This document shows positions 37,470 to 63,109 of a DNA stretch of 64,000 nucleotides, one piece after another. The translations under genes were made by a program, and so were the position numbers. The notes under the pieces are model-generated. The model ran no database searches and was not told the origin of the DNA. It worked only from the letters and a program-made list of their open reading frames with translations. The DNA lies in assembly GCF_000968135.1 (NCBI RefSeq), contig NZ_FO538765.1, forward strand, positions 744,001-808,000, read 5' to 3'. The stretch is from Magnetospira sp. QH-2. GTDB taxonomy: Bacteria; Pseudomonadota; Alphaproteobacteria; Rhodospirillales; Magnetospiraceae. Within the stretch, counting starts at the first letter, position 1, and each line of letters opens with the position of its first letter.

Positions 37470-37544
37470 GGGCACGTAGCTCAGCGGGAGAGCACCGTCT
37501 TCACACGGCGGGGGTCACAGGTTCAATCCCTGTCGTGCCCACCA
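37470..37544 (+). tRNA. tRNA-Val (CAC)
   Basis: A 75-base cloverleaf including an encoded CCA. Acceptor GGGCACG/CGTGCCC, D stem GCTC/GAGC, anticodon stem CCGTC/GGCGG with loop TTCACAC giving anticodon CAC (valine, GUG codons), T stem ACAGG/CCTGT with loop TTCAATC. Gene content and composition change directly after its 3' end, so it is the probable attachment site of the island on its right. Confidence 0.95.
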
Positions 37545-37755
37545 TTTTTCCAAAGAAAATCAGTGTGTTAAGGGCGATTTTTCGAGATCGCTTGCTCGGG
37601 CGTTTTACTTTGCCCCCAGGATGTCCCCAGAATATTCCTGGAACCCCTTCAAAATAAAGGCGGTTTTCAGCCCTGGAATCAGCGTGAAATTGGGCTTGAG
37701 TAAGAGATTGAAGGCGATTGGACTCAGCTTCGAAACGCGGAGGTGTTTCTAGGAC
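37545..37755. other. non-coding stretch downstream of tRNA-Val
   Basis: About 210 bases with no supportable gene. It is the expected place of the left attachment junction. No direct repeat of the tRNA end is visible within it. Confidence 0.5.
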
Positions 37756-38531: not shown

Positions 38532-39617
38532 ATGTTTGGTGAGAGGTTGAAGCTGGCCCGGAAAAAGGCCGGTCTATCGTTGCGTGCCCTCTCCGACGAA
38601 ATGGGAGGGATCGTTTCCGCACAGGCTATCGGGAAATATGAGCGGGACGAGATGATGCCCAACTCGACCGTGCTGATCTCGTTGTGCAAGACCCTTGGCG
38701 TGGGGATGGACTTTTTTGCTGCCCCGACCGGGGCCAAGCTGGTCGAAGTTGATTTCCGCAAACACTCAGGGACCAAAGCTCAAGAGCGAGCCGAGGTTGA
38801 AGCCCGTGTCATCGAGCATGTCGAACGCTATCTAATCATCGAGGAAATTCTCAATCTCGATAGTGCTGCGTGGCATGCTCCATTTAAGCGGCGTTCCATT
38901 GAAGACATCGAGGATGCAGAGGGAATTGCATCCGAGGTGCGTGAGCGATGGAATCTAGGTCTCGACCCAATCCCAAATCTGACTGAGTTGCTGGAAGAAA
39001 AAGGCATCAAGGTGATGATGCTCTCGCTTCCAAACAACGTTTCTGGACTGACCTGCATCGTTGAACGAAAGGGAGTACCGGATGTTCCGGTCATCGTCGT
39101 CAACAAGGACCATCCTTTGGAACGACGACGAATGACGCTCGCACATGAGTTGGGGCACCGTTTGTTTGAGGCTCCAAGCAAGATCGAGGAAAAGGCAGCT
39201 ACCCGTTTCGCTGGAGCGTTCTTGATGCCTAGCGAACACATCATTCGAGAGGTTGGAGATTACCGGCATTTCGTAGGTGTCGAAGAAGTGATGACCTTCA
39301 AGCGAATGTACCGGGTCAGTGCTGCTGCATTCATTGTTCGTCTGAGGGATATCGACATTCTCTCGAACGACAAACTGACCAGAATTTTCAGATCAGTTGG
39401 ACGAACTTGGAGAAGGACTGAGCCAAACCCCATCGAGTCTGAGGAACGCAGCGGCCACTATGAAAGACCTAAGCGGTTCCAAAGGTTGTGTTATCGAGCC
39501 TTGGCCGAGGACCTGATTTCCGTAACCAAAGCGGCTGAACTGCTGGGCGAACCTGTCAAGTTGGTCGAAACCGCCATGACCGAGGGATTGTCCGGTGCCA
39601 AGGATCGTCATCAGTGA
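38532..39617 (+). CDS. XRE-type HTH plus ImmA/IrrE metallopeptidase
   Basis: A 361-residue COG2856-type protein. Residues 1-60 are a Cro/CI helix-turn-helix ('RLKLARKKAGLSLRALSDEMGG'). Residues 150-270 are an ImmA/IrrE domain with the zinc motif HELGH at 205-209. A C-terminal region ends 'YRALAEDLISVTKAAELLGE', the usual tail of this class. Such proteins act as antitoxins or as repressor-cleaving regulators in mobile elements. The gene overlaps the following PIN-domain gene by 23 bases, indicating a two-gene unit. Confidence 0.88.
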   Translation: MFGERLKLARKKAGLSLRALSDEMGGIVSAQAIGKYERDEMMPNSTVLISLCKTLGVGMDFFAAPTGAKLVEVDFRKHSGTKAQERAEVEARVIEHVERYLIIEEILNLDSAAWHAPFKRRSIEDIEDAEGIASEVRERWNLGLDPIPNLTELLEEKGIKVMMLSLPNNVSGLTCIVERKGVPDVPVIVVNKDHPLERRRMTLAHELGHRLFEAPSKIEEKAATRFAGAFLMPSEHIIREVGDYRHFVGVEEVMTFKRMYRVSAAAFIVRLRDIDILSNDKLTRIFRSVGRTWRRTEPNPIESEERSGHYERPKRFQRLCYRALAEDLISVTKAAELLGEPVKLVETAMTEGLSGAKDRHQ

Positions 39618-41200: not shown

Positions 41201-41746
41201 ATGGCGGTTTATGGATATGCACGGGTCAGCACGACCGACCAGGACCTGACCATCCAGGAGCAGGCGTTGCGTTCATACGGCTGCGACATCATCCGAGCGG
41301 AAAAGGTCTCCGGCACCAGTCGAGATGGCCGAAAGGAACTCGAAACCCTGCTCGATTTCCTCCGCAACGGCGACACACTGGTCGTCACCCGGATCGACCG
41401 GCTCGCCCGCTCGATTCGAGACCTCCAAAATCTTGTCCACGATTTGAAAGAACGCGGCGTGATCCTCAAAGCGACGGAGCAACCCATCGACACCGGCACG
41501 GCGGCAGGCAAGGCATTCCTCGACATGCTGGGCGTCTTCGCCGAATTCGAAACCAATCTTCGTTCTGAAAGGCAGATGGAGGGTATCGCCAAGGCAAAGG
41601 CTGCGGGTGTCTATAAAGGCCGGAAGCCGACCATCGATCGGGATGAGGTTGCTCGTCTGCGAGCCGAAGGAAAGGGAGTATCGGAAATCGCTCGCACCCT
41701 CAATATCGGTCGAGCGAGCGTGTATCGGGTGATGAACAGCGGGTGA
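41201..41746 (+). CDS. serine recombinase (resolvase/invertase family)
   Basis: A 181-residue small serine recombinase. The N-terminal catalytic domain has 'YGYARVSTTDQDLTIQEQAL' with the nucleophilic serine, 'VTRIDRLARSIRDLQNLV' and the long E helix 'GVFAEFETNLRSERQMEGI'. The C-terminal 45 residues form a helix-turn-helix ('VSEIARTLNIGRASVYRVM'). Length is that of Tn3-type resolvases or Pin/Gin invertases. No transposase or obvious invertible segment is next to it. GGAGGG precedes the ATG. Confidence 0.92.
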   Translation: MAVYGYARVSTTDQDLTIQEQALRSYGCDIIRAEKVSGTSRDGRKELETLLDFLRNGDTLVVTRIDRLARSIRDLQNLVHDLKERGVILKATEQPIDTGTAAGKAFLDMLGVFAEFETNLRSERQMEGIAKAKAAGVYKGRKPTIDRDEVARLRAEGKGVSEIARTLNIGRASVYRVMNSG

Positions 41747-42923: not shown

Positions 42924-45900
42924 TTACGCCTTGGAGAAGGTCTTCAGGGCGAATTCCTCGATTTCCTCGGATAGAGCCTTCAAGTTTCCAAATCCCAGTT
43001 CATGTGCCATCTGACGGACCTGTTGCCGGAGTGTTTTTCGTAGTTCCGCCTTTTCCTGCCACAACGGCGGTGTATCGCCATAGATGCCCTCGATCTTTCG
43101 GGCGGCATCTGTCAGATCATCCAGTGCGAAGCCTTCGGGCAGGAAGGTTTCCAGCACCTTCATAATGCCATATGCGTCTTCCGACAATCCCGTACCCTTG
43201 TGAGCCTTGGCTTCGGCGTCGATGTCCTTTGCCAGTTCTTCCGCCACCTTGAGTTTATCCGCCCAAGACAGTTGAGCACCCTCCATCCGTTCCAGCAGTT
43301 CCTTCAGGCGGTCGGAGAATTTCCCATATCGATGCGGGTTCTCACCGAGTTTTTCGTAGACGGTCTTGCGAAGTTCCGTGGTCTTGCGAATGGCTGCGGT
43401 CTGGAGGTCATCCTCCGTCATGTCCTCGGTTTCGAAATCATCCCAGAATTGGGGATCGGTTATATGCCGCAGTTTGACGGTGACGCTCAAACCCGTTGCA
43501 TCCAAATGCTGTTCCAGCATGTCTCTGATCTTGCGGCTATAGGTCTGTTGGTCAAAGGCTTCGCGTTTCTCGAAAACCTGCGTGGCGTAGCGGAGGAAAC
43601 CTGCAACCCACTTCAGATCAAGCGTGAACTCAAGCACGGATGGATCAGGGCTGAGGGATTCATAGTGGGAGATGAAATCCCGAGCCTTTGACCGGAACAG
43701 GAACCATTGGTCCTCGCTGTTCAGCGTGCTGACCAGGGCATCGTATTCCTTCTTCAGATCGCCCTTGTTTCGCTTCACTCCCTTCATCAATCCGACAACC
43801 GTCGCATGGGTAGCCCGCAGTTGTGACCGGAGGTCGTCAAGGTTCCGCATTGCATTCTTCACGTCGTCGCTACGGTACGACGACAGGGCTTCGTCGAGCT
43901 TTTTGGAGACCCCGATGTAATCGACGATCAACCCGTTTTTCTTTCGCTCGTCCGCAACCCGGTTGGTTCGGGCGATTGCTTGCAGCAGCGAATGCTCTTT
44001 CAGCGGCTTGTCGAGATACATCACGGACTCGATGGGTGCATCGAACCCGGTCAATAACTTGTCGCAGACGATCAGGAAGTCGGGTGTTTCTCCTTTGCGG
44101 TTGAACGCTGCCTTGACGGCAGTCTCGACATCTCGATCCAGAAAGAGGCGGCGGAGATCGCTTCGGATGTCTTCAGTGCGGGCATCCTCTGACGGCTTGT
44201 CGTCTTCCTGGGATTGGGAGAAGACGCAGGCCGACATGGCGGTAGCTTGATCCCTGGCCTCGTCCGCAGCAAGCCCCTCTTTGACCAAATCCTCAGCGAT
44301 TACACGGTCCAAAGCCCGCTTGTAGAGAACGACCGATTCCCGGTCGATGGCGACGATCTGAGCCTTGAAGCCATCCGGGACGGCGTAGGCTTTGAAGTGC
44401 GTCCAGATGTCGAAGGCGATGAGGTCGATCCGTTTGGAGTGCTTCACCAGATCGGCGATGGTCACGCCCCGCTTCTTGACCTTCTCTAGTTCCTCGTTCG
44501 GCAGGTCGGCGAACCATTGGTCGAACAGAATGTCGATCTTGGCTTCGTCGATGTGCCAGTCGGCTTTGCGTCCGGTATAGAAGATCGGCACCGTTGCCCC
44601 GTCCGCCACCGCATCGTCGATACCGTACTTGTCGAGGTAGCCTTCCCCTTCGACGCCGAAGTTGCGGTAGGTGTCACGGTCGGTCTTTTTGACGGGTGTC
44701 CCGGTGAATCCGAAGAAGCGGGCATCGGGCAGCGTCGCTCGCAGGAGAGCCCCGAGGTCTTTTTCCTGGGTGCGGTGACATTCGTCCACCATGACGATCC
44801 AGCTTGCAGAATTCAGAACCGGCGTCTTCGACCCCTGGAACTTGAACACCGTGGACAGCACCGTCTGGCCGTCGATGCCGCTGCGAATGGTGTCGAGCAG
44901 ATCACCGATGGACTCCGCCCGTTCGGGATTGGGAAGCCCGCATGCCTGGAAGGTGCCGCTGATCTGATCATCGAGATCGATACGGTCGGTGAGTACCATC
45001 AGGTTGGGATTGGCGAGTTCGGGCGAGGTCTCGGTCAGATGCGTCTTCATCTTCAGGGCAGCGAACACCATGGTCAGCGACTTGCCCGATCCTTGGGTGT
45101 GCCAGATCAGCCCCCGGCGATGCTCGTTCTCGACCACCCGCTCGACCATCTTGTTGACCGCACGAAATTGCTGATATCGGCAGATTTTCTTGATCCGGCC
45201 TTCCTCAGTTTTCTCGAAGACGATGAAGTGGGCGATGAGATCGAGCAGCCGGGACGGCTCCAACAGCGACCACAGTCCCTTGGAAAGCTCATCGGGGAAA
45301 TCCGCCTCCAGCTTCGGCCAGGGATCACGCCAGGAGCCGTAGAACTTCGACGGGCTGCCGGTGGAGCCATAGAGGCAGTTGGTACCGTCCGTGATGATGT
45401 TGAAGCAGTTAGTATGGAACAATCGGGGGATGTCCCGCTCGTACCGCTTGATCTGATCGAACGCCTCGCCGCTCTTGTCCTTGGCGTTCAGCGGCGACTT
45501 GCATTCGATGACCACCACCGGGATGCCGTTCACGTAGACCACTACGTCGGGAATGCCCGGTTTCTCCGATTTGACGTAGAGTTGGCGGGTGACCGAGAAG
45601 GTGTTGTTGGCGGGGTTCTGAAAATCGATGACCCGGACGGTCTTGTGTTCCGCCTGCCCCGAGACCTTGCGGCTGTAATTACCCCGCAGAATGCCGAGCC
45701 ATTCCTCGTTGTCGCTCTTTGTCAGCAGATCGACGTAGGCGGCTCGGGCGTCTTCCTCCGACAGCCCGTTTAAGCGTCGCAGGGCATTGATCAGGATGGG
45801 GCGGAACAGCACCAGATTGTCGCCATCCCGCAGACCCACGTGGTCGGCGGGATTGACGAAGCCGTAGCCCATGCCCTCAAGGCACTGGATGGTCGGCTTT

Positions 45901-45926
45901 TCGGCGAGGTGCCATTCGCTGCTCAT
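42924..45926 (-). CDS. hsdR: type I restriction enzyme R subunit
   Basis: A 1000-residue motor-nuclease subunit. The N-terminal PD-(D/E)xK nuclease has PD at 126-127 and ECK at 141-143. The SF2 helicase motor shows Walker A 'TQGSGKSLT' (about 278-286), DECH at 381-384, 'FFGFTGTPVKKTD', and the helicase C-terminal 'AIARTNRVADERKKNGLIVDY'. The C terminus carries the usual helical HsdM-binding region. I chose the ATG at 45926 with GGGGGAAG upstream. All key residues appear intact, so the subunit should be active. Confidence 0.95.
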   Translation of the reverse strand: MSSEWHLAEKPTIQCLEGMGYGFVNPADHVGLRDGDNLVLFRPILINALRRLNGLSEEDARAAYVDLLTKSDNEEWLGILRGNYSRKVSGQAEHKTVRVIDFQNPANNTFSVTRQLYVKSEKPGIPDVVVYVNGIPVVVIECKSPLNAKDKSGEAFDQIKRYERDIPRLFHTNCFNIITDGTNCLYGSTGSPSKFYGSWRDPWPKLEADFPDELSKGLWSLLEPSRLLDLIAHFIVFEKTEEGRIKKICRYQQFRAVNKMVERVVENEHRRGLIWHTQGSGKSLTMVFAALKMKTHLTETSPELANPNLMVLTDRIDLDDQISGTFQACGLPNPERAESIGDLLDTIRSGIDGQTVLSTVFKFQGSKTPVLNSASWIVMVDECHRTQEKDLGALLRATLPDARFFGFTGTPVKKTDRDTYRNFGVEGEGYLDKYGIDDAVADGATVPIFYTGRKADWHIDEAKIDILFDQWFADLPNEELEKVKKRGVTIADLVKHSKRIDLIAFDIWTHFKAYAVPDGFKAQIVAIDRESVVLYKRALDRVIAEDLVKEGLAADEARDQATAMSACVFSQSQEDDKPSEDARTEDIRSDLRRLFLDRDVETAVKAAFNRKGETPDFLIVCDKLLTGFDAPIESVMYLDKPLKEHSLLQAIARTNRVADERKKNGLIVDYIGVSKKLDEALSSYRSDDVKNAMRNLDDLRSQLRATHATVVGLMKGVKRNKGDLKKEYDALVSTLNSEDQWFLFRSKARDFISHYESLSPDPSVLEFTLDLKWVAGFLRYATQVFEKREAFDQQTYSRKIRDMLEQHLDATGLSVTVKLRHITDPQFWDDFETEDMTEDDLQTAAIRKTTELRKTVYEKLGENPHRYGKFSDRLKELLERMEGAQLSWADKLKVAEELAKDIDAEAKAHKGTGLSEDAYGIMKVLETFLPEGFALDDLTDAARKIEGIYGDTPPLWQEKAELRKTLRQQVRQMAHELGFGNLKALSEEIEEFALKTFSKA

Positions 45927-46017
45927 GCTTCCCCCAATTGAAGGGCAACCCACCAATTTCTGAGTGACGACTTCTTATAATGAATAGTCCTGCCATACAC
46001 CCTGGTAAGTTCAACCT

Positions 46018-47185: not shown

Positions 47186-47890
47186 TCACGCTCTCCCAAC
47201 GCCAATGAAAATCAGAAAGTCAAAACCCAAAGGGGTCAGATGAAACCGTCTCGAAACCAGTGGCGGCCCCATGTTGTCCAGGTCCGCATCCTCTTCGATC
47301 AATCCGAATGAGGAGAGGTGTCCAATCATCGCGGCATTTAACTGTAGTTCGGGGTCGCCCTCGTCGATTTCCTTGAGGCCATTCAACTCCTTGACAGACC
47401 GTCCTTCGCTGAGGGCGACGTAATATGACTGCTGAACTCTCTCCGCTGGAGACCTTTGTGGAAGGTTCTCCGGCAGGTAGTTGCTCAGCAGCACAATCTG
47501 CCGGTCATCGATCTGAGTCAGGATACGAAGGAAATGGCGAGCGGCAGCCTGTTTCGTGCCGTCCGACTTCAAGCCGACAGCAACAAGTTCCGCAATTTGC
47601 TGTTTTCGCTCGTCATTGAAGGCACGGGCCGCCTGCCAAATGCCTTCCTCGAATGTGTCCAGGCCCTCCGGGGTCTCCAAGGCGGCCTTCAACTGGAGTT
47701 CGTCGATACACCCCTGGAGATAGAGAAGGTATGCCTCGATCCGCTCCAGTCGGACGTTTGGGATCAACTCGGTGACTGCCGTTTGAATGACACCTCCCGC
47801 GAAGGGGACAGCCGAAGGAAGGCTGGCGACAACCCGCATCGCCCTGTTGCTGGCGGTATCACCAAGAGGGGGACGGTCATCGGCGGTCAT
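47186..47890 (-). CDS. unknown protein with N-terminal hydrophobic segment and C-terminal wHTH-like end
   Basis: A 234-residue protein that overlaps hsdS by 14 bases and is followed immediately by the nuclease-like gene. Residues 20-45 ('VVASLPSAVPFAGGVIQTAVTELIP') are hydrophobic and could form a membrane segment. They are followed by 'NVRLERIEAYLLYLQGCIDEL', which I recall from several proteins in defence neighbourhoods. The C-terminal 60 residues with 'FHLTPLGFDFL' look like a winged helix. Effector or sensor roles are both possible; nothing more can be claimed. Confidence 0.7.
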   Translation of the reverse strand: MTADDRPPLGDTASNRAMRVVASLPSAVPFAGGVIQTAVTELIPNVRLERIEAYLLYLQGCIDELQLKAALETPEGLDTFEEGIWQAARAFNDERKQQIAELVAVGLKSDGTKQAAARHFLRILTQIDDRQIVLLSNYLPENLPQRSPAERVQQSYYVALSEGRSVKELNGLKEIDEGDPELQLNAAMIGHLSSFGLIEEDADLDNMGPPLVSRRFHLTPLGFDFLIFIGVGRA

Positions 47891-49967
47891 AACGCACCTC
47901 CCGAAGCTCGTAGTGGTCACCCTTGTCTTCGGCGATGAACTCGTGATCCACCCCCAGAATTCCCTGGGGCAGAGGATTGTCGGCCAATGGATTGTGAACC
48001 AGGACAATTGGGGGTTTGCCACCACAAGCGGCATCGATCCCTGCCGGTGTCCCCAGCAAGGCACTCACTCCCGAGTAATCTGGATTGAGAAAGCTGTCGG
48101 TTGGGACATCAGCATCGTTTTGGTTTTTGATGAACCTTCGATTCGAATAACGCTGATCCACCGTCTTCATGGTTTGACGATCAATCACCAGTTCTATCGG
48201 ACCGACCGGAAACGCCGCCTCTACGGCAAAGGGAAGCTGGGAAATGCTATTGTGAAGATGAAGTGAGGTTGGCCCTAAACGGCAAGAGCTTACCGCCACG
48301 ACGTAGGGTTCACCGCCGCCTACGACTTCTTTTTCCAGGTACCCCGGCCTCCAGCCCCCGCTCCGTCTGGGCCGCCCCGTCAGCTTCTCTTTCTTTTCCT
48401 TGAGTGCGGCGGTCCAACGCAGCAACATCTGCTCATGGGGTACACTTTGTGCCCGAGGAGCTTCCCCCGCCTTGGAAATGCGAAGCCAATCCTCGGAAAG
48501 ACCTTCGGGGCCAGGACAAACAGCCTCGATCCAAATCTTCTGCCCCTTATAGAGAAAACCGAAGTCGGGACCTTCATCAGCGGATTGGAGGTCCAGCCCT
48601 AAGTTCTTCAAGTGGGATGCCAGGACCATTTCCCAGAGGTAGGCGAAAAAATCCGCATCACGGCCACTCGTGAACTTAGATTCGAACGAGGAGTCCTTTA
48701 GCCCCCATCTACCGTATCGACGAAACAGGTCTTTCAGGCATTCCATGACCTCCGTGTTGTCGGCGTATCTGGCTTCCAAGAATGTTTCAACCTGTCCTAT
48801 CACCCGAACCCGACCGGTGAGGAGGTCGGTCATTAGGGCTGATTTGAGACGCTGAAGATGATGTAGGTGACGTTGGTGTGTCTCCACACCTTTTGAGAGG
48901 CTGTCAAAGCGGTCAATTATTGCCTGTTGCTCTGCCAACGGTGGCACAACGGCAGGGAACTGTTTGACCTGCGTCGAATTGATAGAAGCCAAGTTGGTGG
49001 TGCGTTTCGAGCAACTAAGGAAGTATTGCTTGCCGTATTGCGAACCAGTAAGGGCTGCGAGGAAATCAGGTAATAATCTTTTTTGGTCGGGTCGAACGGC
49101 GAAAACATGGTTTTGATGGAGACAAGGGGAAATTTGGCCTCTCCACACGTCGCCACGCCCCAGCTTGTCGTAATCCCCACCTTCGGTCAGCAGGACATCA
49201 CCGACTTCGAGTGAATATCTCGCTATCTGCGATTTGGATACGGTAATCATCTTCATTTCCGTCAAATCAACAAATCCGTCCTGGACGTTCGCAACCCGCA
49301 GGTAGGGCAACTCAATAGGATCGGATACATCCTTCTTCCCTTTCGCCAGTCCGGTCTGAACTTTGGCGATATGAGACAGCGGGATGACCTCCCACCTCTC
49401 GGGGATTTTGCCGATTTCGGTTTGTTTGAAGCGGGTGTGGCCGATGCCCTTGGTCAGCAGGCGTTTCAGGACGCCCCGCTTAACCTTGCAGGTCTGCTCG
49501 ATCACCGCCTGCGTGGACTGAATGGCATCGTCCACCGACGAGAGGATTTCAGCGATGCGGCGTTGCTCGGGAAGGGGGGGGAAGATGATTGGTTCGGTGT
49601 GAACGACGTTCCGATTAAGTGTTGGTACTCCGGTACCTGTGGCAAATCTTGAAAGCCGAAAGTGCTCTAAGAATCTGAAAACAAAGGCCGGATCATTGCC
49701 GTGAAAATCTTTCACGTACAGCGTCGTATTGAGGGGCCAATACGCCCCATCAAAAAACAGAACTTTTCCAATAGTGCCGCTTCGCCCAGTGACGACACCT
49801 GGACCTTCAACTCTTGGCTCGTTGTGAGTTCCAACTATCCCATTCGAGGCAATAACAGGAAAGTCGCCCGTTTCCCTTCTTTGCACAGGTAGGTCAAACC
49901 CTCTTTGAAGAGTAACTGCCTCGTCAAATCGAACACTCTCCCACCCCTCCGGCACCTCAATCGACAT
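47877..49967 (-). CDS. hsdS: type I restriction specificity subunit fused to a PD-(D/E)xK-like C-terminal domain
   Basis: A 696-residue protein, about 290 residues longer than a usual HsdS. Residues 1-390 are a complete two-half HsdS: target domain 1, the conserved 'PPLPEQRRIAEIL' with its coiled coil (130-175), target domain 2, and the second 'PPLAEQQAIIDRF' coiled coil ending 'LMTDLLTGRVRV'. From residue 391 a further domain follows in frame. It contains 'GPDFGFLYKGQKIWIEAVCP' with D468 and E481, a PD-(D/E)xK-like core in which the lysine is replaced by valine. The start at 49967 overlaps hsdM by 11 bases. Confidence 0.88.
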   Translation of the reverse strand: MSIEVPEGWESVRFDEAVTLQRGFDLPVQRRETGDFPVIASNGIVGTHNEPRVEGPGVVTGRSGTIGKVLFFDGAYWPLNTTLYVKDFHGNDPAFVFRFLEHFRLSRFATGTGVPTLNRNVVHTEPIIFPPLPEQRRIAEILSSVDDAIQSTQAVIEQTCKVKRGVLKRLLTKGIGHTRFKQTEIGKIPERWEVIPLSHIAKVQTGLAKGKKDVSDPIELPYLRVANVQDGFVDLTEMKMITVSKSQIARYSLEVGDVLLTEGGDYDKLGRGDVWRGQISPCLHQNHVFAVRPDQKRLLPDFLAALTGSQYGKQYFLSCSKRTTNLASINSTQVKQFPAVVPPLAEQQAIIDRFDSLSKGVETHQRHLHHLQRLKSALMTDLLTGRVRVIGQVETFLEARYADNTEVMECLKDLFRRYGRWGLKDSSFESKFTSGRDADFFAYLWEMVLASHLKNLGLDLQSADEGPDFGFLYKGQKIWIEAVCPGPEGLSEDWLRISKAGEAPRAQSVPHEQMLLRWTAALKEKKEKLTGRPRRSGGWRPGYLEKEVVGGGEPYVVAVSSCRLGPTSLHLHNSISQLPFAVEAAFPVGPIELVIDRQTMKTVDQRYSNRRFIKNQNDADVPTDSFLNPDYSGVSALLGTPAGIDAACGGKPPIVLVHNPLADNPLPQGILGVDHEFIAEDKGDHYELREVRYDRR

Positions 49968-51447
49968 AGCCCAACTCCTTGAGGAAGCCGAGCATCCGCT
50001 CCTCCGCCCGGTCCCGCTGCTCCCGCAGTTCGAGCAGTTTCTCCACCTCCTCGGCGACATCCAGGTCCTCCTCCTCCTCGCCGATGTGGACGTAGCGGGA
50101 AATGTTGAGGTTCCAGTCGTTGGTCTCGATCTCAGTCAGACCGACCACACGAGCCAAACGCTCCTTGTCCTGGTAGTCGAGGAATGCCTCGGCCAGGGTG
50201 GCGACGTTTTCGTCCGACAGGTGGTTCTGGGCCTTGCCTTCGACGAAGGTCTCCGCCCCGTTGACGAACAGCACACGGCCACGCCGCTCGGCGGGCTTGG
50301 TCTTGCGGATGATGACGATGCAGCCGGGAATGCCCGCCCCGTAGAACAGGTTGGGAGCGAGGCCGATCACCGCTTCGATGATGTCATCCTTCAACATGCC
50401 CTGGCGGATTTTGGCTTCCTGACCGCCCCGAAACAGGATGCCGTGGGGCAGCACCACGCCCAGCATGCCGTCGTCCTTCAGGCTCGCCACCATGTGCTGG
50501 ACGAAGGCGAGGTCGGCGTATGACTTGGGCGGGCAGCCGTACTTGTCCCGCCCGAACCGGTCGCCCGCCGTCCAGACCTCGTGGCCCCACTGCTTGAGCG
50601 AGAAGGGCGGATTGGCGAGAACCCGGTCGAAGGTACGGATCGCCTTCACGCCGTCGCCGGCCAGGTGCTTCGGATCGATCAGGGTGTCGCCCCGCTCGAC
50701 AAAAGCGTCGTCGATGTCGTGCAGGAACAGGTTCATCTGGCAGATGGCCCAGGTGTTCAGGTTCCGCTCCTGCCCGAACAGGCTGAGGGCTTTCGGATTC
50801 TTGTCGTGGCGTTCCAGGTAGTGGACCGCCTCCAGCAGCATGCCGCCCGAGCCGCAGGTGGGATCGTAGACCGACATGCCTTCCTCGGGCCGCAGACATT
50901 CGACGATCAGCCGCACGACCATCTTCGGCGTATAGAACTCGCCGCCCTTCTTGCCCGCATCGTCGGCGAACTGGGAAATCAGGTACTCATAGGCGTTGCC
51001 CAACATGTCCGGCTCCACGTCGGTGCGGCGGAGGCGGTGGGTCTCGAAGTGCTGGAGCAGCTTCTCCAGGATGGCGTCGGGGAAACGCTGTTTGTTGTTG
51101 AAGTCCACGTCCTGGAAGACGCCCTGAAGCCGGTGATTGGCGTCCTCGATGGCGTGGAAGGCGACGTTCAGGTGTTCACCGATGTTGGTTGTGTGCTGCC
51201 GCACGTCCTTCCAGAAATGGCCTTCGGGAATGTGGAAGCGGTGTTCGTCGGGATCGGCGGCGAGGTCTTGGTCGCCGTATTGTTCCAGCTTCTGTTCGTA
51301 CTCTTCCTCCCATACGTCGCAGAGGCGTTTGAAGAACAGCAGACCGAAGATGTAATGCTTGTAGTCACCAGAATCGATGGACCCCCGCAGGATGTCTGCG
51401 GCTCCCCACAAATGAGATTCCAGTTGTTGCAAGGTTAGGACAGGCAT
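49957..51447 (-). CDS. hsdM: type I restriction enzyme methyltransferase subunit
   Basis: A 496-residue N6-adenine methyltransferase subunit. It has the N-terminal HsdM_N region ('LWGAADILRGSIDSGDYKHYIFGLLFFKRL'), 'GGEFYTPKMVVRLIVE', AdoMet motif 'VYDPTCGSGGML' and catalytic 'VLANPPF'. The C terminus is helical and acidic. I chose the ATG at 51447, the family start. The frame is open another 145 codons upstream, but those residues do not resemble HsdM. It is the first gene of the leftward hsdM-hsdS-x-y-hsdR-ygjP operon. Confidence 0.95.
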   Translation of the reverse strand: MPVLTLQQLESHLWGAADILRGSIDSGDYKHYIFGLLFFKRLCDVWEEEYEQKLEQYGDQDLAADPDEHRFHIPEGHFWKDVRQHTTNIGEHLNVAFHAIEDANHRLQGVFQDVDFNNKQRFPDAILEKLLQHFETHRLRRTDVEPDMLGNAYEYLISQFADDAGKKGGEFYTPKMVVRLIVECLRPEEGMSVYDPTCGSGGMLLEAVHYLERHDKNPKALSLFGQERNLNTWAICQMNLFLHDIDDAFVERGDTLIDPKHLAGDGVKAIRTFDRVLANPPFSLKQWGHEVWTAGDRFGRDKYGCPPKSYADLAFVQHMVASLKDDGMLGVVLPHGILFRGGQEAKIRQGMLKDDIIEAVIGLAPNLFYGAGIPGCIVIIRKTKPAERRGRVLFVNGAETFVEGKAQNHLSDENVATLAEAFLDYQDKERLARVVGLTEIETNDWNLNISRYVHIGEEEEDLDVAEEVEKLLELREQRDRAEERMLGFLKELGYVD

Positions 51448-51615
51448 GAGCGTTTGAATTCCGATTCGTTGATTCTTGTGGGCATTTGGGAACCGGCCAC
51501 ATGATGCCCCCTGACACCTTGGACGGCAATCCGATCCCATATTGGCGTGACGCAGCAAATCACTCAAGTGTAGGATGTGAATCCAATCTAAACACATCAT
51601 GAAGGATTGTAGGGC

Positions 51616-52800
51616 ATGGATGCCGGAAAGGTCGAGCGAGTCAGGAAACCGATCTACCCACTGTACAGGGATGTGCGGATGTTGCTCGGCATTTTCGACG
51701 GAATCACCAAGAAGGACGTGCGGAAGCTCATCGACACCATCCACGGCCTCACCGGAACACCTCAGAATCCAGTTGATTGGTCGGACCCGGATAGCTGGAT
51801 CGACGAACGCCTGAGCGGGGGCAATGCTGCTCTGGCCCATCGAATTTGGAAAGAGACCGAATGGACCGTGAATCCCCGTCACATTTACGGCGACTACATG
51901 TTCGTCAACAGCTACGAACTGCTCACTCCCGATGCGACTGGGATTTACCGGCTCACTGACAGGGGAAAGGATTTCCTTGCCGGTGACGAGTCGTCCGTTG
52001 TCCGGGAGATCGATGACCTCGAAGGCATTCCGAAACTGCTGGAAATCCTGTCCACCAAGACCTCGGCCCGCAAAGCGGACCTGATCGGCGAATGGAGCGA
52101 GTTCCTTGCGGAAAACTCCAAGTGGTCCACTCCGAAGGGCATTGCCGATACCATGCGTCGGCGACTGAACAACCTGATTGGTAGAGGATACGTTTCAAGG
52201 ACGGGTAACGCCTACCAGATCACGCCTGCCGGGATCACCTATCTGGGTGAACATGCGGGTGGTGCTGCTTCCGAGAAGATCTCGATGCGGAAGACGATCT
52301 CCGACTACAACGGCAATCGGTTGGAGGAATTTCGATCCCGTCTGATATCCATGGACCCATACGCTTTCGAAGCCTTGGTCGGGAGCCTTCTTGAAGCAAT
52401 GGATTACGAAGATGTGGTCGTCACCAAGCAGAGCGGCGACAAGGGCGTGGACGTGGTGGCCCGCTATCAGTTCGGCATCACCGAGATCACCGAAGTCGTG
52501 CAGGTCAAACGCCAGCAGGGAACCATCACCCGCCCGATCCTCGATCAACTCAGGGGAGCCTTGCACTATCACAACGCCATCCGAGGCACGATCATCACGC
52601 TGGGTAAATTCGCCAAGGGAACGAAGGATGCGGCGATCCATCCCGGTGCCCCACCGATCACCCTGATCGACGGCGACAAACTGATCGAACTTCTGGTCAA
52701 GCATGGAATCGGCATCAAGAAGCGTCAGGAGGTTTTACTTGAGGTTGATGAGGCGTTTTTCAAGGATGCGGAAGAAGAACCGATGTCCGAGGACGATTGA
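51616..52800 (+). CDS. Mrr-like restriction endonuclease
   Basis: A 394-residue protein. The C-terminal Mrr catalytic domain covers about residues 245-350 with 'DPYAFEALVGSLLEAMDY', 'GDKGVDVVARY' (D279) and 'VVQVKRQ' (QVK, 296-298). The first 240 residues are two winged-helix-like regions ('WTVNPRHIYGDYMFVNSYEL', 'LTDRGKDFL', 'QITPAGITYLGEHAG') typical of Mrr-type DNA-binding parts. Mrr-type enzymes usually cut methylated DNA, so coexistence with several methyltransferases is notable. It is divergent from hsdM. Confidence 0.85.
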   Translation: MDAGKVERVRKPIYPLYRDVRMLLGIFDGITKKDVRKLIDTIHGLTGTPQNPVDWSDPDSWIDERLSGGNAALAHRIWKETEWTVNPRHIYGDYMFVNSYELLTPDATGIYRLTDRGKDFLAGDESSVVREIDDLEGIPKLLEILSTKTSARKADLIGEWSEFLAENSKWSTPKGIADTMRRRLNNLIGRGYVSRTGNAYQITPAGITYLGEHAGGAASEKISMRKTISDYNGNRLEEFRSRLISMDPYAFEALVGSLLEAMDYEDVVVTKQSGDKGVDVVARYQFGITEITEVVQVKRQQGTITRPILDQLRGALHYHNAIRGTIITLGKFAKGTKDAAIHPGAPPITLIDGDKLIELLVKHGIGIKKRQEVLLEVDEAFFKDAEEEPMSEDD

Positions 52801-56247: not shown

Positions 56248-56799
56248 ATGGTGAATTCAGTACGATGGCAATTCGTCTCGTGTTTGAGCGAGATGAACTG
56301 GCGGGATGGGTTGGCGTATACGTTGACCTTTCCATTTCAGATGGCTGAAAGTCGAAAACGGGTAGAAAAAGAACTCAGGTTCTTTTTCAACGTACTCGAC
56401 AAAGCCGTCTTCGGACGACGCTCGCTTCGTAGCGACGCCCATCGGTGTCAGCGGATCAACATGATCGAAGGTGGGCCGCTGGGCGACAATTTCCATTGCC
56501 ATGGATTGATACGGCCTTCGAGTCATCCCGAAGCGAAGATTATCGAAAGCTGTACCCTGCAACAAGCAATGGAGGAAATATGGAACAACAAAATGAGGAG
56601 CGTTCTCACCTTTGACAGAGAGTATTTCGGCAACAAAGCCATCCCTGCGAGGATCGAGATCAATCCGGCTTTCGACAATGGCAACACGCCCGGTAAGTGG
56701 GCGAACTACATATGCAAGACGATATCGGCTGAAAACAGTGAAGCACTGTGTCCGAAAACTTCTTGGTTTCACGATGGACCGGTGAACAAGGCAAGATAA
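56248..56799 (+). CDS. possible HUH-endonuclease/replication-type protein
   Basis: A 183-residue protein. Two features resemble HUH single-strand nucleases: 'GDNFHCHGLIRP' with H83-C-H85 in the place of His-hydrophobic-His, and 'GKWANYICKTIS' with Y154-x-x-K157 in the place of the nicking tyrosine. The order and roughly 70-residue distance fit small Rep proteins. The fit is only motif-level and the protein is short. GGAGG lies upstream. It opens a run of rightward phage/ICE-like genes. Confidence 0.5.
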   Translation: MVNSVRWQFVSCLSEMNWRDGLAYTLTFPFQMAESRKRVEKELRFFFNVLDKAVFGRRSLRSDAHRCQRINMIEGGPLGDNFHCHGLIRPSSHPEAKIIESCTLQQAMEEIWNNKMRSVLTFDREYFGNKAIPARIEINPAFDNGNTPGKWANYICKTISAENSEALCPKTSWFHDGPVNKAR

Positions 56800-57153: not shown

Positions 57154-57471
57154 ATGTTGGATTGGAGAGACATCTATACACGCTGCAAAGACCTGGATAT
57201 TTGCCAGAGCCAGTACCAGTTTAGTCGGGAGGTAATGGGGCGAAAGCCAAGTACGTTCTCTGCCGCCATGGCAGAAGATCGAACATTTTCGATGGAAACA
57301 CTCACCCGAAGCTTTGTCCGAATTCAGGACATAATTACGAACAGCGAGGAGGAGGTGGAAACCACCGAAGGAGACGACCGGGAAGCCCTGATCGGTGGGA
57401 TTGAGGACCTGGATGGCATCCTTGATGAGATTTGGCAGGAAATCCGTCAGCGGGTTTATGACGATGAGTGA
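57154..57471 (+). CDS. small acidic protein (DUF6626-like), 105 aa
   Basis: A 105-residue protein with an N-terminal region 'SQYQFSREVMGRKPSTFSAAMAEDR' that reads like a helix-turn-helix for DNA binding. A strongly acidic helical tail follows ('EEEVETTEGDDREALIGGIEDLDGILDEIW'). I recall similar proteins as DUF6626, without certainty. GGAGG precedes the ATG. Its end overlaps the next gene by eight bases. Confidence 0.6.
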   Translation: MLDWRDIYTRCKDLDICQSQYQFSREVMGRKPSTFSAAMAEDRTFSMETLTRSFVRIQDIITNSEEEVETTEGDDREALIGGIEDLDGILDEIWQEIRQRVYDDE

Positions 57472-58414: not shown

Positions 58415-58439
58415 TCGATTTTTATTAATGGAGTCGTCA

Positions 58440-58880
58440 ATGAAATTCAAATTGAGTTCGACAAAACGTCCCTCGGCAGTCGAACGCCGCAAGAAAAACC
58501 CGCGTGATATCGTGACGGACGGCATCGATGTTCAGATCGAGTCCATCCAGGCCGCTGAAAAGGGCGAGGTGTTCACCGTGACCCGTCATCGGTACTTCGA
58601 TGTGACCGAAGATGGCGTCACGAAGAAGGTAAAAAAGGAAATCCAGTCCAAACCGAAGCAGTGGTGGTGGCAGGATGGCGACCTGTTCCTGACCGAAATC
58701 CGCTACGGTTCTTCCGCCGTCGTTCAGCTTGAGGAAGGTATGCCCAGCATCGAATGCGGCAAGTCCTTGAAGGACGTGATTAAAACCCTCGAAGAGATCA
58801 AGAAAGCCGTCTTGGTCGGGGAGTTCGACGACCGCATTGCCGTCGCCCGTCAGCAAGCATCCCGCAAGAAGACGGCGTAG
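58440..58880 (+). CDS. unknown protein (DUF6641-like), 146 aa
   Basis: A 146-residue basic protein. An N-terminal 'STKRPSAVERRKKNPRD' is followed by beta strands with a 'KPKQWWWQDGDLFLTEIRYGS' tryptophan cluster and a C-terminal helix ('SLKDVIKTLEEIKKAVLVGEFDD'). I recall this layout as DUF6641, a family of phages and ICEs, with modest certainty. I chose the ATG at 58440 with GGAG six bases upstream. It ends one base before the convergent methyltransferase gene. Confidence 0.65.
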   Translation: MKFKLSSTKRPSAVERRKKNPRDIVTDGIDVQIESIQAAEKGEVFTVTRHRYFDVTEDGVTKKVKKEIQSKPKQWWWQDGDLFLTEIRYGSSAVVQLEEGMPSIECGKSLKDVIKTLEEIKKAVLVGEFDDRIAVARQQASRKKTA

Positions 58881-60530
58881 CTACGCCGCCTTCCTGTTCG
58901 CCCTGGCGGCGGCAATCCGTTGTTCGGCGAGCTTGATGAACTTCCCTTCGAGTTCGAAGCCCAGATAGCGACGATCCAGTTCGACCGCAGCAACTCCCGT
59001 CGTCCCCGACCCCATGAAGGGATCGAGAACGAGGTCACCTTCACCGCTGTAAAGCTTGATCAGACGGCGGGGAAGTTCGACGGGGAATGGGACGGGATGA
59101 CCAACACGGGTTGCCTTCTCAGGAGTAATGTTCCAGATCGAGCGGGTTAAATCGGCGAAATCGTCGCTGGAAATCGGTTTGATCCCTCGATACCGGTCAC
59201 GCAGATCGGTGCGGCAGTAATCCCCTTTTGAGAAGACAAGCACGTACTCGTGAACATCCCGCAGTACCGGATTGGACGGCTTCCCATGCGACCCCCACCC
59301 AAAACCGGCAACGCCTCCGCCCTTGTTCCAGATGATTTCTCCACGAGGCAAGAAACCGACTTCCTCCATCATCAAATGGATATGGGCGGTCAAAGGAATA
59401 TAGGGCGAGCGACCCGTGTTGTTGATGTTGATACAGACCCGGCCACCTACAACGGTGACCCGATGGATTTCCACGAACACCTTGCGAAGCCAATCCAGGT
59501 AGTCGTCGAACGGACGGTCGTCGTCGGTGTTTTCGCCATACCCGATCCCCACGTTGTACGGTGGCGAGGTGACTGTCAGATGGATCGAATCGTCCGGCAA
59601 CAGCGACATGTCCTCGCAGGACTGGTTGAAAACACAGTCCATGAGAGGGCGGGCATCGTTGTCGTTCGCCACGGCAGGGACTGGTTCAGGCAATCGCTCC
59701 CCGATCTGGCGGGCATAGATATCGAGCAGAGGCGTCTGGTAGGTCGGAATGATCACTTCTTGCCCTTGCTGATTTCCACTCACGGAATAGCCGACTTGAT
59801 GGACAATCGGGCGGTGCTGGGAGAAAGCCTCTCGAACTGTCCGTGAATCGTTCAAGGTAATCAGAACATCGTGCTGGCATGCCTCGACGGCTAGAGTGAA
59901 GCCCTCCAGGTCGAAATCCCCGAATTCATACATCCGATTGCCGACTTCTTCGTATGGAGGATCGGCGAAACAGAACACGTCGTTTCCCGGAGCCGACAGA
60001 ACATCGCGGTAGTCTTGGCAGGTGATATGGATGCCTTGCAGCAGTTCAGAGAAACCGTTGAGGCGTTCGATCTTCGACCGGGTGACCGCCTCGCCCGCTT
60101 CGACCCGCTTGCGAGCGAATCCGTATCCTGTGTTTTTTGTTCCCCGCACGATCTGGTGCTTCAAGAACGTTGCGACTGCCGTATCCATCAAGTCTTCGCT
60201 TTCGTTCCAGTCGAGCCATTGGCGGTACAGGTCTTCCGAGCCACCGCCATGAATATCGTAGAGGTACAGGAGACGACCGATCAGGTCTGCCGGTTGCTGC
60301 TGCAAAATGTTGTGGAAAGCGAAGACCTGCGGATCGAGGTCGTTGATCCAATACCGTTCGCAAGGATGATGGCGGCGGATATGGAAGAACATCGCCGCTC
60401 CACCCGCGAAACACTCACGGTATTCGCGGTAGCCATCGGGACGCAGCCCCGACAGCGTTTCCGCCATCTTTGCTTTACCACCGGGGTAGGCGAGCGGCGT
60501 GCGTTGATGATCAGCCAATCGTATCAACAT
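58881..60530 (-). CDS. bifunctional DNA methyltransferase: D12 (Dam-like) domain plus beta-class N4/N6 domain
   Basis: A 549-residue protein containing two complete-looking methyltransferase domains in one frame. Domain 1 (about 1-285) is D12-class adenine type: 'YPGGKAK' (15-21), 'ECFAGGAAMF' (39-48), catalytic DPPY at 190-193. Domain 2 (about 295-545) is beta-class with the catalytic motif first, 'TSPPYN' (321-326), and the AdoMet motif last, 'LDPFMGSGTTG' (502-512). A linker with ANDND joins them. I chose the ATG at 60530, which shares one base with the stop of the upstream paralogue. Specificities cannot be read. Confidence 0.85.
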   Translation of the reverse strand: MLIRLADHQRTPLAYPGGKAKMAETLSGLRPDGYREYRECFAGGAAMFFHIRRHHPCERYWINDLDPQVFAFHNILQQQPADLIGRLLYLYDIHGGGSEDLYRQWLDWNESEDLMDTAVATFLKHQIVRGTKNTGYGFARKRVEAGEAVTRSKIERLNGFSELLQGIHITCQDYRDVLSAPGNDVFCFADPPYEEVGNRMYEFGDFDLEGFTLAVEACQHDVLITLNDSRTVREAFSQHRPIVHQVGYSVSGNQQGQEVIIPTYQTPLLDIYARQIGERLPEPVPAVANDNDARPLMDCVFNQSCEDMSLLPDDSIHLTVTSPPYNVGIGYGENTDDDRPFDDYLDWLRKVFVEIHRVTVVGGRVCININNTGRSPYIPLTAHIHLMMEEVGFLPRGEIIWNKGGGVAGFGWGSHGKPSNPVLRDVHEYVLVFSKGDYCRTDLRDRYRGIKPISSDDFADLTRSIWNITPEKATRVGHPVPFPVELPRRLIKLYSGEGDLVLDPFMGSGTTGVAAVELDRRYLGFELEGKFIKLAEQRIAAARANRKAA

Positions 60531-62188
60531 TACGCCGCCTCCTTCATCGCCGGTTTGGTGGCTTTCCGTTTGACGCCGATGCGGCGGAACTCGTCGGCTT
60601 CGATCAACCACTCGACCGGAGTCACGACACTGGGCCGGGTCGTGATCTTCGACCAATGGTGCTTGATCGGAATATCGGGAATGGTCGGATGGGAGCGATC
60701 CGCCACGTGGAGCATTCCCGGTAAAGCCGAATTGAAATAGTCGGTGAACGGACGGTGATTGCCCCAGATGACCAGGGCGAGGCCCTCGGGAAAGGCGGTC
60801 TTGGCGGTTTGCAAGTCGCCGATACGCCCTTTGCGGAACTTGACCTTGCCGTGGAAGAACCAGACTTTCGCATGATAGGCGACGTAGTGTTGCCAATAGC
60901 GGTTATGCTGACGAGCCGGAATCAAGCCGACAATGCTTTCGCATGCAGGAGCCTTGCAGCGAGCAGCGTCCCTGGTCGGGGCATTGGGAAATTCGCCGCA
61001 CCAAGTGGACTCCGCTGCCTTCTTCAGCCAAGGCTTCAGATCGTTGAAAGGCGGATTGATGAACATCCGACCCTGCCACGGTTGGGTCAAGCCGTCATCT
61101 TCGACGGTATAGTGGCGGTTCGCCCAAACAGGGGCCTGCGGTCCCTTGATCGGCGAACAGGGATCAATGTCAAACGGTTGGTCGCCATTGGCGGCGTACA
61201 GATGATCCAGAATCCAATCCGGCGTGTACCACTCGGGGTTACGCTTTCCCCGTTTCGGGTCGAGGAACAGTTTTTGCGTGTCTTCACCGACCGGCACGGA
61301 TTTAGGCAATTCGCGGATGTTGTCGTTTGCCGGAGCTTCCAGATCAAACAGCGGCTCTCCAATCTGGCGGGCGTAGACCGAGTACAGCGGAGCATCATAG
61401 TTCGCCGCCAGGAGTTCTGCCTTTTCTGAATGTTCGCCCATGCTGCTGTGATAGGTCCGCAGGATGGGTTTCATGTCGGCGAAGCGTAAGCGGTTCGCGG
61501 GACTGTCGTTGACCTTCACGAGGCAATCGTGGGAGCAGTTACGGACCAAGGCGGAAAGTTCCTCCAAGTCCTCTTCACCGAACGGGTACATGGTAGGGCC
61601 AACGTCTTCGAACGGCGGATCAGCATAGTTGAGAACGCCGTCACCCGGTTCCGCCAACACGTCGCGGTAATCCAAATTGGTGATCTTCACGCCTTGGAGA
61701 AGCTCAGAGAAGCCGAGGATGTTGTCGATGAAATGCTTCTTCACCCCACGACCTTCGCGGACATAGCTCGGATTGTAACCGGATTTCCCGTTGGTTCCCC
61801 CGTAGTCCAGGCGATTGCGAACCCAGAATCCCGCCGCCGCCTCGATGGCGTCGTCGGAACCGACCATGCTTTCGGCCAGCTTGAACAGGTCCTCGCTGCC
61901 GAGGCCATGTTCGCCTCGGATGGCGTGCAGACGGCCAACCAGATCGTCGGCCCGATCCCGGACCATGGTCCAGAAGTTGACCAGATGAGGGTCAAGGTCG
62001 TTCCACCAAAAACGCTCGGCAAGACCGCGACGGATCATGGTGAAGGTCATAGAGGCTCCACCGCCGAAGGCTTCGCGGAATTCCGTGACCACGGTCGGAC
62101 GCAGGTTCACCTTCAAGTCGGCGGTGCGATAGTCCCCACCGGCATTGCGGAGGGAACTGGAGCAGGTATCGTGGAGGCGGACAAGCAT
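60530..62188 (-). CDS. bifunctional DNA methyltransferase: D12 (Dam-like) domain plus phage N6-adenine domain
   Basis: A 552-residue protein whose residues 1-285 align almost without gaps to domain 1 of the next gene: 'GFSELLQG', 'DYRDVL', DPPF at 190-193, 'YARQIGE' near 272-278. In this copy the PGGK motif is replaced by 'NAGGDYR'. The C-terminal domain (about 310-552) is different. It begins 'NPEWYTPDWILDHLY' and has 'FDIDPCSP' and NPPF at 378-381, matching phage-type DNA N6-adenine methyltransferases (PF05869-like). The start overlaps the preceding gene by one base. Whether both domains are active is unknown. Confidence 0.83.
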   Translation of the reverse strand: MLVRLHDTCSSSLRNAGGDYRTADLKVNLRPTVVTEFREAFGGGASMTFTMIRRGLAERFWWNDLDPHLVNFWTMVRDRADDLVGRLHAIRGEHGLGSEDLFKLAESMVGSDDAIEAAAGFWVRNRLDYGGTNGKSGYNPSYVREGRGVKKHFIDNILGFSELLQGVKITNLDYRDVLAEPGDGVLNYADPPFEDVGPTMYPFGEEDLEELSALVRNCSHDCLVKVNDSPANRLRFADMKPILRTYHSSMGEHSEKAELLAANYDAPLYSVYARQIGEPLFDLEAPANDNIRELPKSVPVGEDTQKLFLDPKRGKRNPEWYTPDWILDHLYAANGDQPFDIDPCSPIKGPQAPVWANRHYTVEDDGLTQPWQGRMFINPPFNDLKPWLKKAAESTWCGEFPNAPTRDAARCKAPACESIVGLIPARQHNRYWQHYVAYHAKVWFFHGKVKFRKGRIGDLQTAKTAFPEGLALVIWGNHRPFTDYFNSALPGMLHVADRSHPTIPDIPIKHHWSKITTRPSVVTPVEWLIEADEFRRIGVKRKATKPAMKEAA

Positions 62189-62832
62189 TATGCGGCCTCC
62201 TTCTCATCGTCGTTGGCGGCGAGGAATGCCGCCACGGCGGTCTCGTCGCTCTCGACCACACGCAGCACGGTGATCGAGCCGTCCTCGGCGATCTCGCCCA
62301 GGAGCAGGACCTTGCGGGCGGAACCCTTCGGAGCGGGAGAGATTTCCATGATGTCGGCGGACGGGGATGCCGTGAATTCGTCGTTGGCGACGCTCGGGGT
62401 AGCGGCGGCGGTCTTGGCGGTCGGCACCGACGCCTTGCGGGCGGCGTGATACTGCTTGACGCAATGATCAACGCCGCCGTTGGCGAGGTAGGTCTCAGCC
62501 ATCTCGACCGGCACGCCCGCCTCGTCCAGGTGGGCGAGGACCAGCGACCAGTTGCCGTGCTTGCGGCGGTGATCGTACTTGAAGTCGCTGAGATTGTGGA
62601 ACACGAGCTTGATGACCAGCAGGGCGAGCGGTTCGCTCGCCTGCCCGGTGACACGCACACCCGCCTCGGTGGCGAGGGCGACGAATGCGTCGGGTGACTG
62701 CTTGGCGGTCAGGTACAGGTCGCACGCATGAGCCAGGACCTGATACAGAGCCGCATGGCTGCCGTCGAGGGCGACGGCATAGGCGTTGACGCTGGCGATG
62801 GTTGTGGTGAGTTTGTCATGAAGCTGGGTCAT
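62188..62832 (-). CDS. unknown protein, 214 aa, phage/ICE type
   Basis: A 214-residue protein directly upstream of the two methyltransferases, sharing one base with the second. It has a helical N-terminal domain ('LYQVLAHACDLYLTAKQS', 'HRRKHGNWSLVLAHLDEAG'), an alanine/serine/proline linker (about 135-165) and a small C-terminal beta region ('KVLLLGEIAEDGSITVLRVVESDE'). GGAGGAG precedes the ATG at 62832. It may be an accessory of the DNA modification operon; no family is known to me. Confidence 0.65.
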   Translation of the reverse strand: MTQLHDKLTTTIASVNAYAVALDGSHAALYQVLAHACDLYLTAKQSPDAFVALATEAGVRVTGQASEPLALLVIKLVFHNLSDFKYDHRRKHGNWSLVLAHLDEAGVPVEMAETYLANGGVDHCVKQYHAARKASVPTAKTAAATPSVANDEFTASPSADIMEISPAPKGSARKVLLLGEIAEDGSITVLRVVESDETAVAAFLAANDDEKEAA

Positions 62833-62846
62833 ATCGATCTCCTCCA

Positions 62847-63011
62847 TCAAGCCGCCGCCTTGAGGGCGGCTGCGGCAGGTTCACAATTGAGGGGATCGTT
62901 ATCGTTGGCGGCGATGGGAGCCGGGGCGGTCTTGCTGACCGTGGGGGCGATCCAGGTGATCGCAGGGGCGTTCAGAGCGGTGTTCTTGGTGATTTCGAGA
63001 TGCTTCGTCAT
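62847..63011 (-). CDS. small Ala/Pro/Thr-rich protein, 54 aa
   Basis: A 54-residue low-complexity protein (MTKHLEITKNTALNAPAI... ending AAALKAAA) with AGGAGG before the ATG at 63011. It contains 'AANDND', a string also found in the linkers of the two downstream methyltransferases. It is the first gene of the leftward modification operon. Function is unknown and it may be a leader-type peptide. Confidence 0.55.
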   Translation of the reverse strand: MTKHLEITKNTALNAPAITWIAPTVSKTAPAPIAANDNDPLNCEPAAAALKAAA

Positions 63012-63063
63012 GGAGTCCTCCTGTTGTTCAAGATGACTCCATGGGATCACAGATCCAGAATCC

Positions 63064-63109
63064 GTCAATACTGAGCAGATCGAAAATATTTCTCTCCGAA
63101 AGTATTGAC
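63064..63109. repeat. inverted repeat in the promoter region of the modification operon
   Basis: GTCAATACT (63064-63072) and AGTATTGAC (63101-63109) form an inverted pair with 28 bases between them. They sit 50-100 bases upstream of the 54-residue gene, in the 145-base AT-rich gap to the recombinase. They are candidate operator sites or part of the recombinase's own DNA site. Confidence 0.5.

Follow-up and report, generated by a model that had tools for sequence, protein, structure and literature searches.

The island and its genes

The window, the whole 64,000-nt stretch of the Magnetospira sp. QH-2 genome that was analysed, carries an island of about 27.3 kb (window 37500-64847) seated in tRNA-Val. 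The island is bounded by an exact 58-bp repeat, at 37500-37557 and 64790-64847, the second copy just past the window end. An inner 23-bp repeat lies at 37611-37633 and 64624-64646. The features, in window coordinates, are as follows.

37500-37557, (+): left island end repeat, the 3′ part of tRNA-Val and following bases
38532-39617: RmrA-like regulator, on the island
41201-41746: resolvase, on the island
42924-45956, (-): HsdR of a type I RM system
47877-50060, (-): HsdS, longest frame; the true start is probably later
49957-51882, (-): HsdM, longest frame
51616-52800, (+): Mrr_cat protein (PADLOC PDC-S02, 1e-170)
56248-56799: 183-aa frame with FHCHG and YICK motifs
57154-57471, (+): 105-aa frame, with relatives close to the cassette in G054, G263 and G264
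58428-58880, (+): p7, convergent to the cassette (phrog_31551, 3e-17; weak DUF6641)
58881-60530, (-): protein B, D12B-N6_N4, 549 aa (D12B about 59661-60530, N6_N4 about 58896-59642)
60530-62188, (-): protein A, D12A-Dam, 552 aa (D12A about 61319-62188, Dam about 60644-61270)
62188-62850, (-): p4, unknown helical protein, whose stop codon overlaps the protein A start by one base
62847-63068, (-): p5, small open frame of 73 aa, putative gene, upstream of p4
63157-64605 (window ends at 64000), (-): tyrosine integrase, 482 aa, adjoining the repeat at 64790-64847

By its tRNA-Val repeat and integrase the island with its cassette is a mobile element, and the several methyltransferase domains thus do lie on a mobile island, in line with an earlier note on this DNA. 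That note also reported 'no dedicated nuclease', which is right for the operon and wrong for the island, with its HsdR, HsdM, HsdS and Mrr-type genes. In profile searches neither the operon genes nor p7 matched a nuclease family, that is, no cognate nuclease of the kind that goes with a type II RM system was found.

The same kind of search gave no family match for p5 or for the 183-aa frame, whose two motifs resemble those of HUH replication proteins. A Magnetospirillum relative of the 105-aa frame matches DUF6626. The p7 gene adjoins the cassette in 11 of 12 genomes, the exception being G193, and has no match at 1e-5 in the phage and plasmid records.

Around most cassette copies, 12-16 kb of DNA was read. 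Among loci with the cassette or its remains, seven have a resolvase relative (about 60-62%), L047 and L048 each have a relative of the RmrA-like protein (66%), and HsdR has relatives in L103 (72%) and L047 (71%), so these elements have more in common than methyltransferases. In Magnetospirillum-group elements (L044 2939-13346 and relatives) the cassette is accompanied by a common set, at about 90% identity, of an 871-aa helicase/primase-like gene, a UmuDC pair and a resolvase.

Two fused methyltransferases

Both frames are uninterrupted, and the genes overlap by one base, the ATG of protein B at 60530 overlapping the protein A stop codon. The 671-aa frame listed for protein B extends upstream of this start. 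Two overlapping genes thus hold four methyltransferase domains of three classes. The claim of two adjacent two-domain methyltransferases is borne out by the open frames and by profile and fold matches for the domains.

Residues 1-290 of protein A are D12-like. PF02086 is absent at E 0.1 in the Pfam profile search; phrog_56 matches at E 4e-36 and TIGR00571 dam at 3e-11, under its curated cut-off. In the AlphaFold model (mean pLDDT 72.6; D12 blocks mostly >80, Dam blocks 59-87) the D12 part aligns with 7m6b and with E. coli Dam along about 260 columns. Fold match, phrog_56 and TIGR00571 agree on the D12-like identity, and the seven distinct PDB sequences matched by a profile of the protein A family all belong to D12 enzymes. 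The PF05869 Dam profile matches residues 319-394 at 4e-10, above the cut-off, with an NPPF motif; the match of the Dam part to TIGR01712 is below the TIGR01712 cut-off, and no fold match comparable to that of the D12 part was seen for the Dam part of the model.

Residues 15-226 of protein B match PF02086 at 3.5e-19, above the Pfam cut-off, and residues 316-536, which carry TSPPY and DPFMGSGTT, match PF01555 N6_N4_Mtase at 3.5e-45. The best NCBIfam match is PRK11524 (YhdJ), below cut-off. Against the PDB the first part matches 7m6b and D12 enzymes; 2zie is the best match of the protein, which also finds further beta-type enzymes, CcrM and RsrI among them, and the second domain distantly resembles CcrM.

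The motifs GFSELLQG, DPPF/DPPY and YARQIGE and the ANDN linker stand where they had been reported, and protein A does have AGGD in place of the PGGK of protein B. The two D12 domains, proposed to be shared, were aligned: 116 of 291 positions are identical (40%, E 1e-65, one gap), so the likeness is not due to chance.

Distribution and architectures

A search of 317 genomes of the order with protein A hit 15 at E 1e-20. Twelve of these, the own genome among them, contain D12A as well as Dam, and the remaining three, G018, G038 and G051, have single-domain matches only. A scan of named genome contigs, which uses short peptide patterns and can miss relatives, gave 12 loci, in Magnetospirillum moscoviense, three Paramagnetospirillum species, a Phaeospirillum MAG, Terasakiella brassicae, T. 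pusilla and three further MAGs. Among 385 genomes drawn from the class, the own genome is the sole match at E 1e-30. Among 50,697 phage records and 72,556 plasmid records, none reaches 80% coverage of protein A at E 1e-5, and protein B is so covered only in two records of Geobacillus virus E3. Single-protein scans of viral contigs found no relative, and alignment scans of these contigs gave one and two loci with D12 matches, at 28% identity.

The architectures below have rough domain borders in the relatives.

D12A-Dam alone: G159, G144, G167, G161 (frameshifted) and G162 (over two contigs)
D12A-Dam plus D12B without N6_N4: G193 C268, and G156 over two contigs
D12A-Dam, then D12B-N6_N4: the window and G147 (Dam frameshifted in G147)
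D12A-Dam-N6_N4 as a single protein: G054 (807 aa), G263 (806 aa) and G264 (912 aa)
D12B remnant: G193 C52
Dam and D12 as separate genes: second locus of G054 (L022)
Lone N6_N4 next to a p7 relative: G156 locus L109

The DNA order D12A, Dam, D12B, N6_N4 is kept wherever at least two of these co-occur, with L022 as the sole exception. The G156 contig ends within Dam, and D12A and the first 115 Dam codons share that contig. Protein A is not a sequencing error that joined separate genes, a refutation suggested earlier, since its D12-Dam architecture recurs in other genomes. Damaged copies comprise the frameshifts in G161 and G147, the D12B remnant in G193 C52 and a truncated D12A in G164. Phase variation was considered for the G161 split and rejected: there is a one-base difference at the site and no repeat stood out by eye, so the split is a plain frameshift or a sequencing error.

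Relatives of p4 at E <1e-60 were found in 14 places in 13 genomes, and in 13 of the 14 p4 stands ahead of D12A. At the exception, in G164 (L103 7537-8424), p4 is followed by a D12A cut to about 77 residues that runs in frame into DUF7168, on an element that also carries HsdR. The p4 protein has no Pfam match at E 0.1; searched with 11 p4 members, none was convincing at E 1 (best 0.012). Its model (mean pLDDT 71) is helical with a C-terminal beta hairpin of low confidence, and a fold search of the PDB gave nothing at E 0.001. In G143 a 581-aa protein, encoded near a relative of the 871-aa gene, joins a p4-like part to a D12, and in G062 (L105 4605-5966) such a part is fused to a PAS_5 domain; because of the latter fusion, p4-like domains are not confined to methyltransferase cassettes. 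From gene order, overlap and the one fusion to D12, p4 probably serves the methyltransferases as partner or loading factor.

Origin of the D12 pair

A tree was built from 24 D12 domains, leaving out two outgroup rows and the long row L070. In this tree a single change accounts for the 13 D12A rows (modest support, 75/76), and the window D12A falls among D12A of other genera. The D12B domains of the window, G147 and G156 form a group (98/97); with that of G193 unplaced, the D12B rows together do not make a firm clade. By this phylogeny the D12A/D12B split is older than these species. The earlier note had proposed a tandem duplication; one special to this locus is not supported, and a recent one in this genome is contradicted, by the tree and by the same tandem in G147. 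Because the D12B rows are not firmly united, D12B may have arisen from D12A or have been recruited separately.

Exchange of domains between elements

Codon-aligned nucleotide identities were computed for six Magnetospirillum-group elements. There are two D12A types (89-98% within, 76-80% between) and two Dam types (89-100% within, 69-71% between, ignoring the G161/G156 Dam comparison, whose 13 codons span different halves), and the two do not track each other. The flanks stay similar, rep at 89-94% (10 pairs) and p7 at 84-94% (15 pairs). On single contigs, D12A type 1 occurs with Dam type 1 in G159 and G144 and with Dam type 2 in G167, and D12A type 2 occurs with Dam type 1 in G161 and, for the first half of Dam, in G156. 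Paramagnetospirillum kuznetsovii LBB-42 and Magnetospirillum moscoviense BB-1 carry type 1 of both domains, and the Phaeospirillum protein joins D12A type 1 to Dam type 2. The fourth combination, in G162, spans two contigs and was not counted because the contig ends do not overlap exactly. G159 and G167 are 93% identical in D12A and 69% in Dam, while G159 and G161 are 77% and 90% identical, and sliding windows put the change in identity near the linker.

L060 was compared, as query, with L058 and L050. Of the informative sites, 180 of 207 in D12A favour L058 (180:27), 162 of 184 in Dam favour L050 (22:162), and rep is even (119:115). The observed maximum was reached by 0 of 2000 shuffles, and the breakpoint, at L060 position 8906 (about residue 317), falls between D12A and Dam. 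The domain counts for L057 as query agree (169:33 in D12A, 22:162 in Dam); here rep is uneven (87:146), and the strongest break is upstream, at 7632. Domain replacement, which the earlier note had invoked as a process, is thus supported by exchange among related elements.

In the Terasakiella-type pair L061/L062, dS is 0.36 for D12A, 1.21 for Dam and 0.40 for N6_N4, and 0.56 and 0.84 for the flanking p4 and p7. This mosaic is not a simple swap, as the flanks (p4 and p7, 83% nucleotide identity) are less alike than D12A and N6_N4. The p4 of G156 is only 65-74% identical to six others, and p4 and the gene after it recombine as well. Exchange is therefore not confined to the parts that would set specificity, and the block is a recombination hot region rather than a matter of the methyltransferases alone.

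Catalytic motifs and selection

The D12 motifs (GGK, an F-x-G-x-G-like motif, DPPY/F) are all present in protein B; protein A has FGGGAS and DPPF with GGD. Among D12B domains, those of the window, G193 and G147 have GGK, FAGGAA or FVGGGA, and DPPY, and that of G156 has GSK, FVGSGA and DPPY. Among D12A domains, GGK and DPPY are found in G144, L058, L060, L059 and L065; L064 has GGK, FCYSAS and DPPY, and L061 and L062 have GGC, FCNSAA and DAPY. Dam motif IV is NPPF in the window, NPPY in G144, L060, L059 and L065, NAPF in L058, NAPY in L061, NGPY in L062 and NPEY in L064. The N6_N4 motif is TSPPY, or TSVPY in L064. As rRNA N6-adenine methyltransferases carry NLPY or NIPY at this motif, N-x-PY need not mean a dead Dam domain.

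By NG86, dN/dS in the single pair L061/L062 is 0.083 for D12A, 0.098 for N6_N4 and 0.078 for Dam, and other pairs with dS >0.2 give 0.11-0.26 for methyltransferase domains. The sole outlier is D12A of the very close pair L057/L060, at 0.39 with dS 0.06. These values bear on the idea that the cassettes are decaying remnants of RM systems that now have no function. Frameshifts and truncations at several loci, and the altered catalytic motifs of some domains, are what decay would leave; the low ratios, 0.08-0.10 in L061/L062 and 0.11-0.26 elsewhere, and the open frames of the window argue against it, and we regard it as very unlikely.

The value of 0.083 suggests that D12A of L061/L062 is kept by selection, with or without catalysis. 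The earlier proposal of a structural or target-recognition module gains some support from this pair, which combines GGC and two further changed motifs with strong purifying selection. The AGGD change that had prompted the proposal is confined to the window D12A, GGK being kept in L057, L058, L059, L060, L064 and L065. A degenerate partner has a parallel in METTL3-METTL14, where a methyltransferase fold with a degenerate active site is retained as partner (PMC5023411). D12A of L061/L062 may be comparable, although METTL3-METTL14 is a eukaryotic RNA enzyme of separate chains and no relation is claimed. Taken further, D12A could, in at least one lineage, be a non-catalytic selected partner that chooses or holds the target for the adjacent Dam or N6_N4, with recombination in the linker giving new specificities and p4 acting as loading factor. 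We consider such a combinatorial methyltransferase unlikely.

Function and relation to known systems

We favour, with a probability of about 0.5, a solitary-methyltransferase cassette on mobile elements whose specificity is changed by domain exchange and which would mark DNA against restriction. It draws, at the level of sequence, on the architecture, mobile context, old D12 split, domain exchange and purifying selection described above. Mobile elements of the order would carry the cassette as a set of solitary DNA methyltransferases, its two- and three-domain proteins combining methyltransferases of differing classes; with several classes bundled in each protein, methylation by the operon would fall on several DNA sites. 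Related elements would swap single domains by homologous recombination, with breaks in the interdomain linker or neighbouring genes, and a swap, seen as such in the sequences, would alter the combination of specificities. Marks on element and host DNA may then let the element survive when its next host or a competing island restricts DNA, probably their likeliest use. Such protection is plausible, and type I RM or RmrA-like relatives lie near some other cassette copies.

The main rival, in our view rather unlikely, makes each fused pair one enzyme for one non-palindromic site, with one domain per strand. This is the pattern of fused type II methyltransferases such as MhoVII of Mycoplasma hominis, whose YhdJ-branch and D12-branch methyltransferases mark GATG and CATC (PMC12898733). 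Protein B likewise is a single protein joining the same two kinds, in reverse order with D12 first, and is preceded by the D12-Dam protein. MhoVII (PMC12898733) has a nuclease and one complementary motif pair, whereas the cassette operon lacks a nuclease, and among the loci read no nuclease gene is conserved next to the cassette. Independent exchange of D12A and Dam would separate matched partners, unless the types share a single target. A strand pair also sits poorly with D12B lacking N6_N4 (G193, G156) and with N6_N4 directly after Dam in three proteins.

Alternatively, the marks could serve not to evade restriction but for replication, copy control or expression of the element, as Dam or CcrM marks do. 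The Magnetospirillum-group cassette lies near the helicase/primase-like gene, and the CcrM likeness of protein B, distant as it is, points the same way. A mark at an origin or regulatory site should, however, keep its specificity, while here domains are exchanged and some copies are lost from elements that stay; we hold this to be quite unlikely.

For the exchangeable solitary cassette that we favour, the closest precedents are partial. Helicobacter pylori RM systems exchange target recognition domains, so that there too recombination in coding sequence alters the methyltransferase make-up; they move recognition domains, whereas the cassette exchanges whole methyltransferase domains of a fused protein (PMC3983042). 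Phages and plasmids have the single domains of the cassette as solitary D12, Dam and N6_N4 methyltransferases, and Geobacillus virus E3 has two of these kinds as adjacent genes that jointly cover 90% of protein B at 25% identity. Among the papers listed by literature searches, no title and abstract opening describes this cassette, which may still be described in print. Fused methyltransferases and moving recognition domains are already known; their combination in the cassette is a new variation on them, as whole methyltransferase domains of a nuclease-less fused protein reassort on mobile elements. Natural strains that pair D12A and Dam types differently in nearly the same background are a ready-made experiment, and the combinations of these carriers could show which domain makes which mark, and whether a motif-altered domain matters.

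A tmRNA-tag motif in the operon

The (A)ANDN motif in the operon proteins (window 58881-63068) is the start of the tmRNA tag of the own genome, ANDNEAFAVAA, as found by ARAGORN (locus L110, C1 846501-846831). A reading of the -KEAA/-RKAA protein ends as degradation tags was set aside: at the end of protein A these residues are encoded by a purine-rich stretch ahead of the protein B start, a likely ribosome-binding site. The ANDN DNA pattern occurs 22 times in the genome, against eight for the control order ADNN; three of the 22 are in the operon and one is the tmRNA itself. Relatives of p4 frequently carry ANDN close to the C-terminus.
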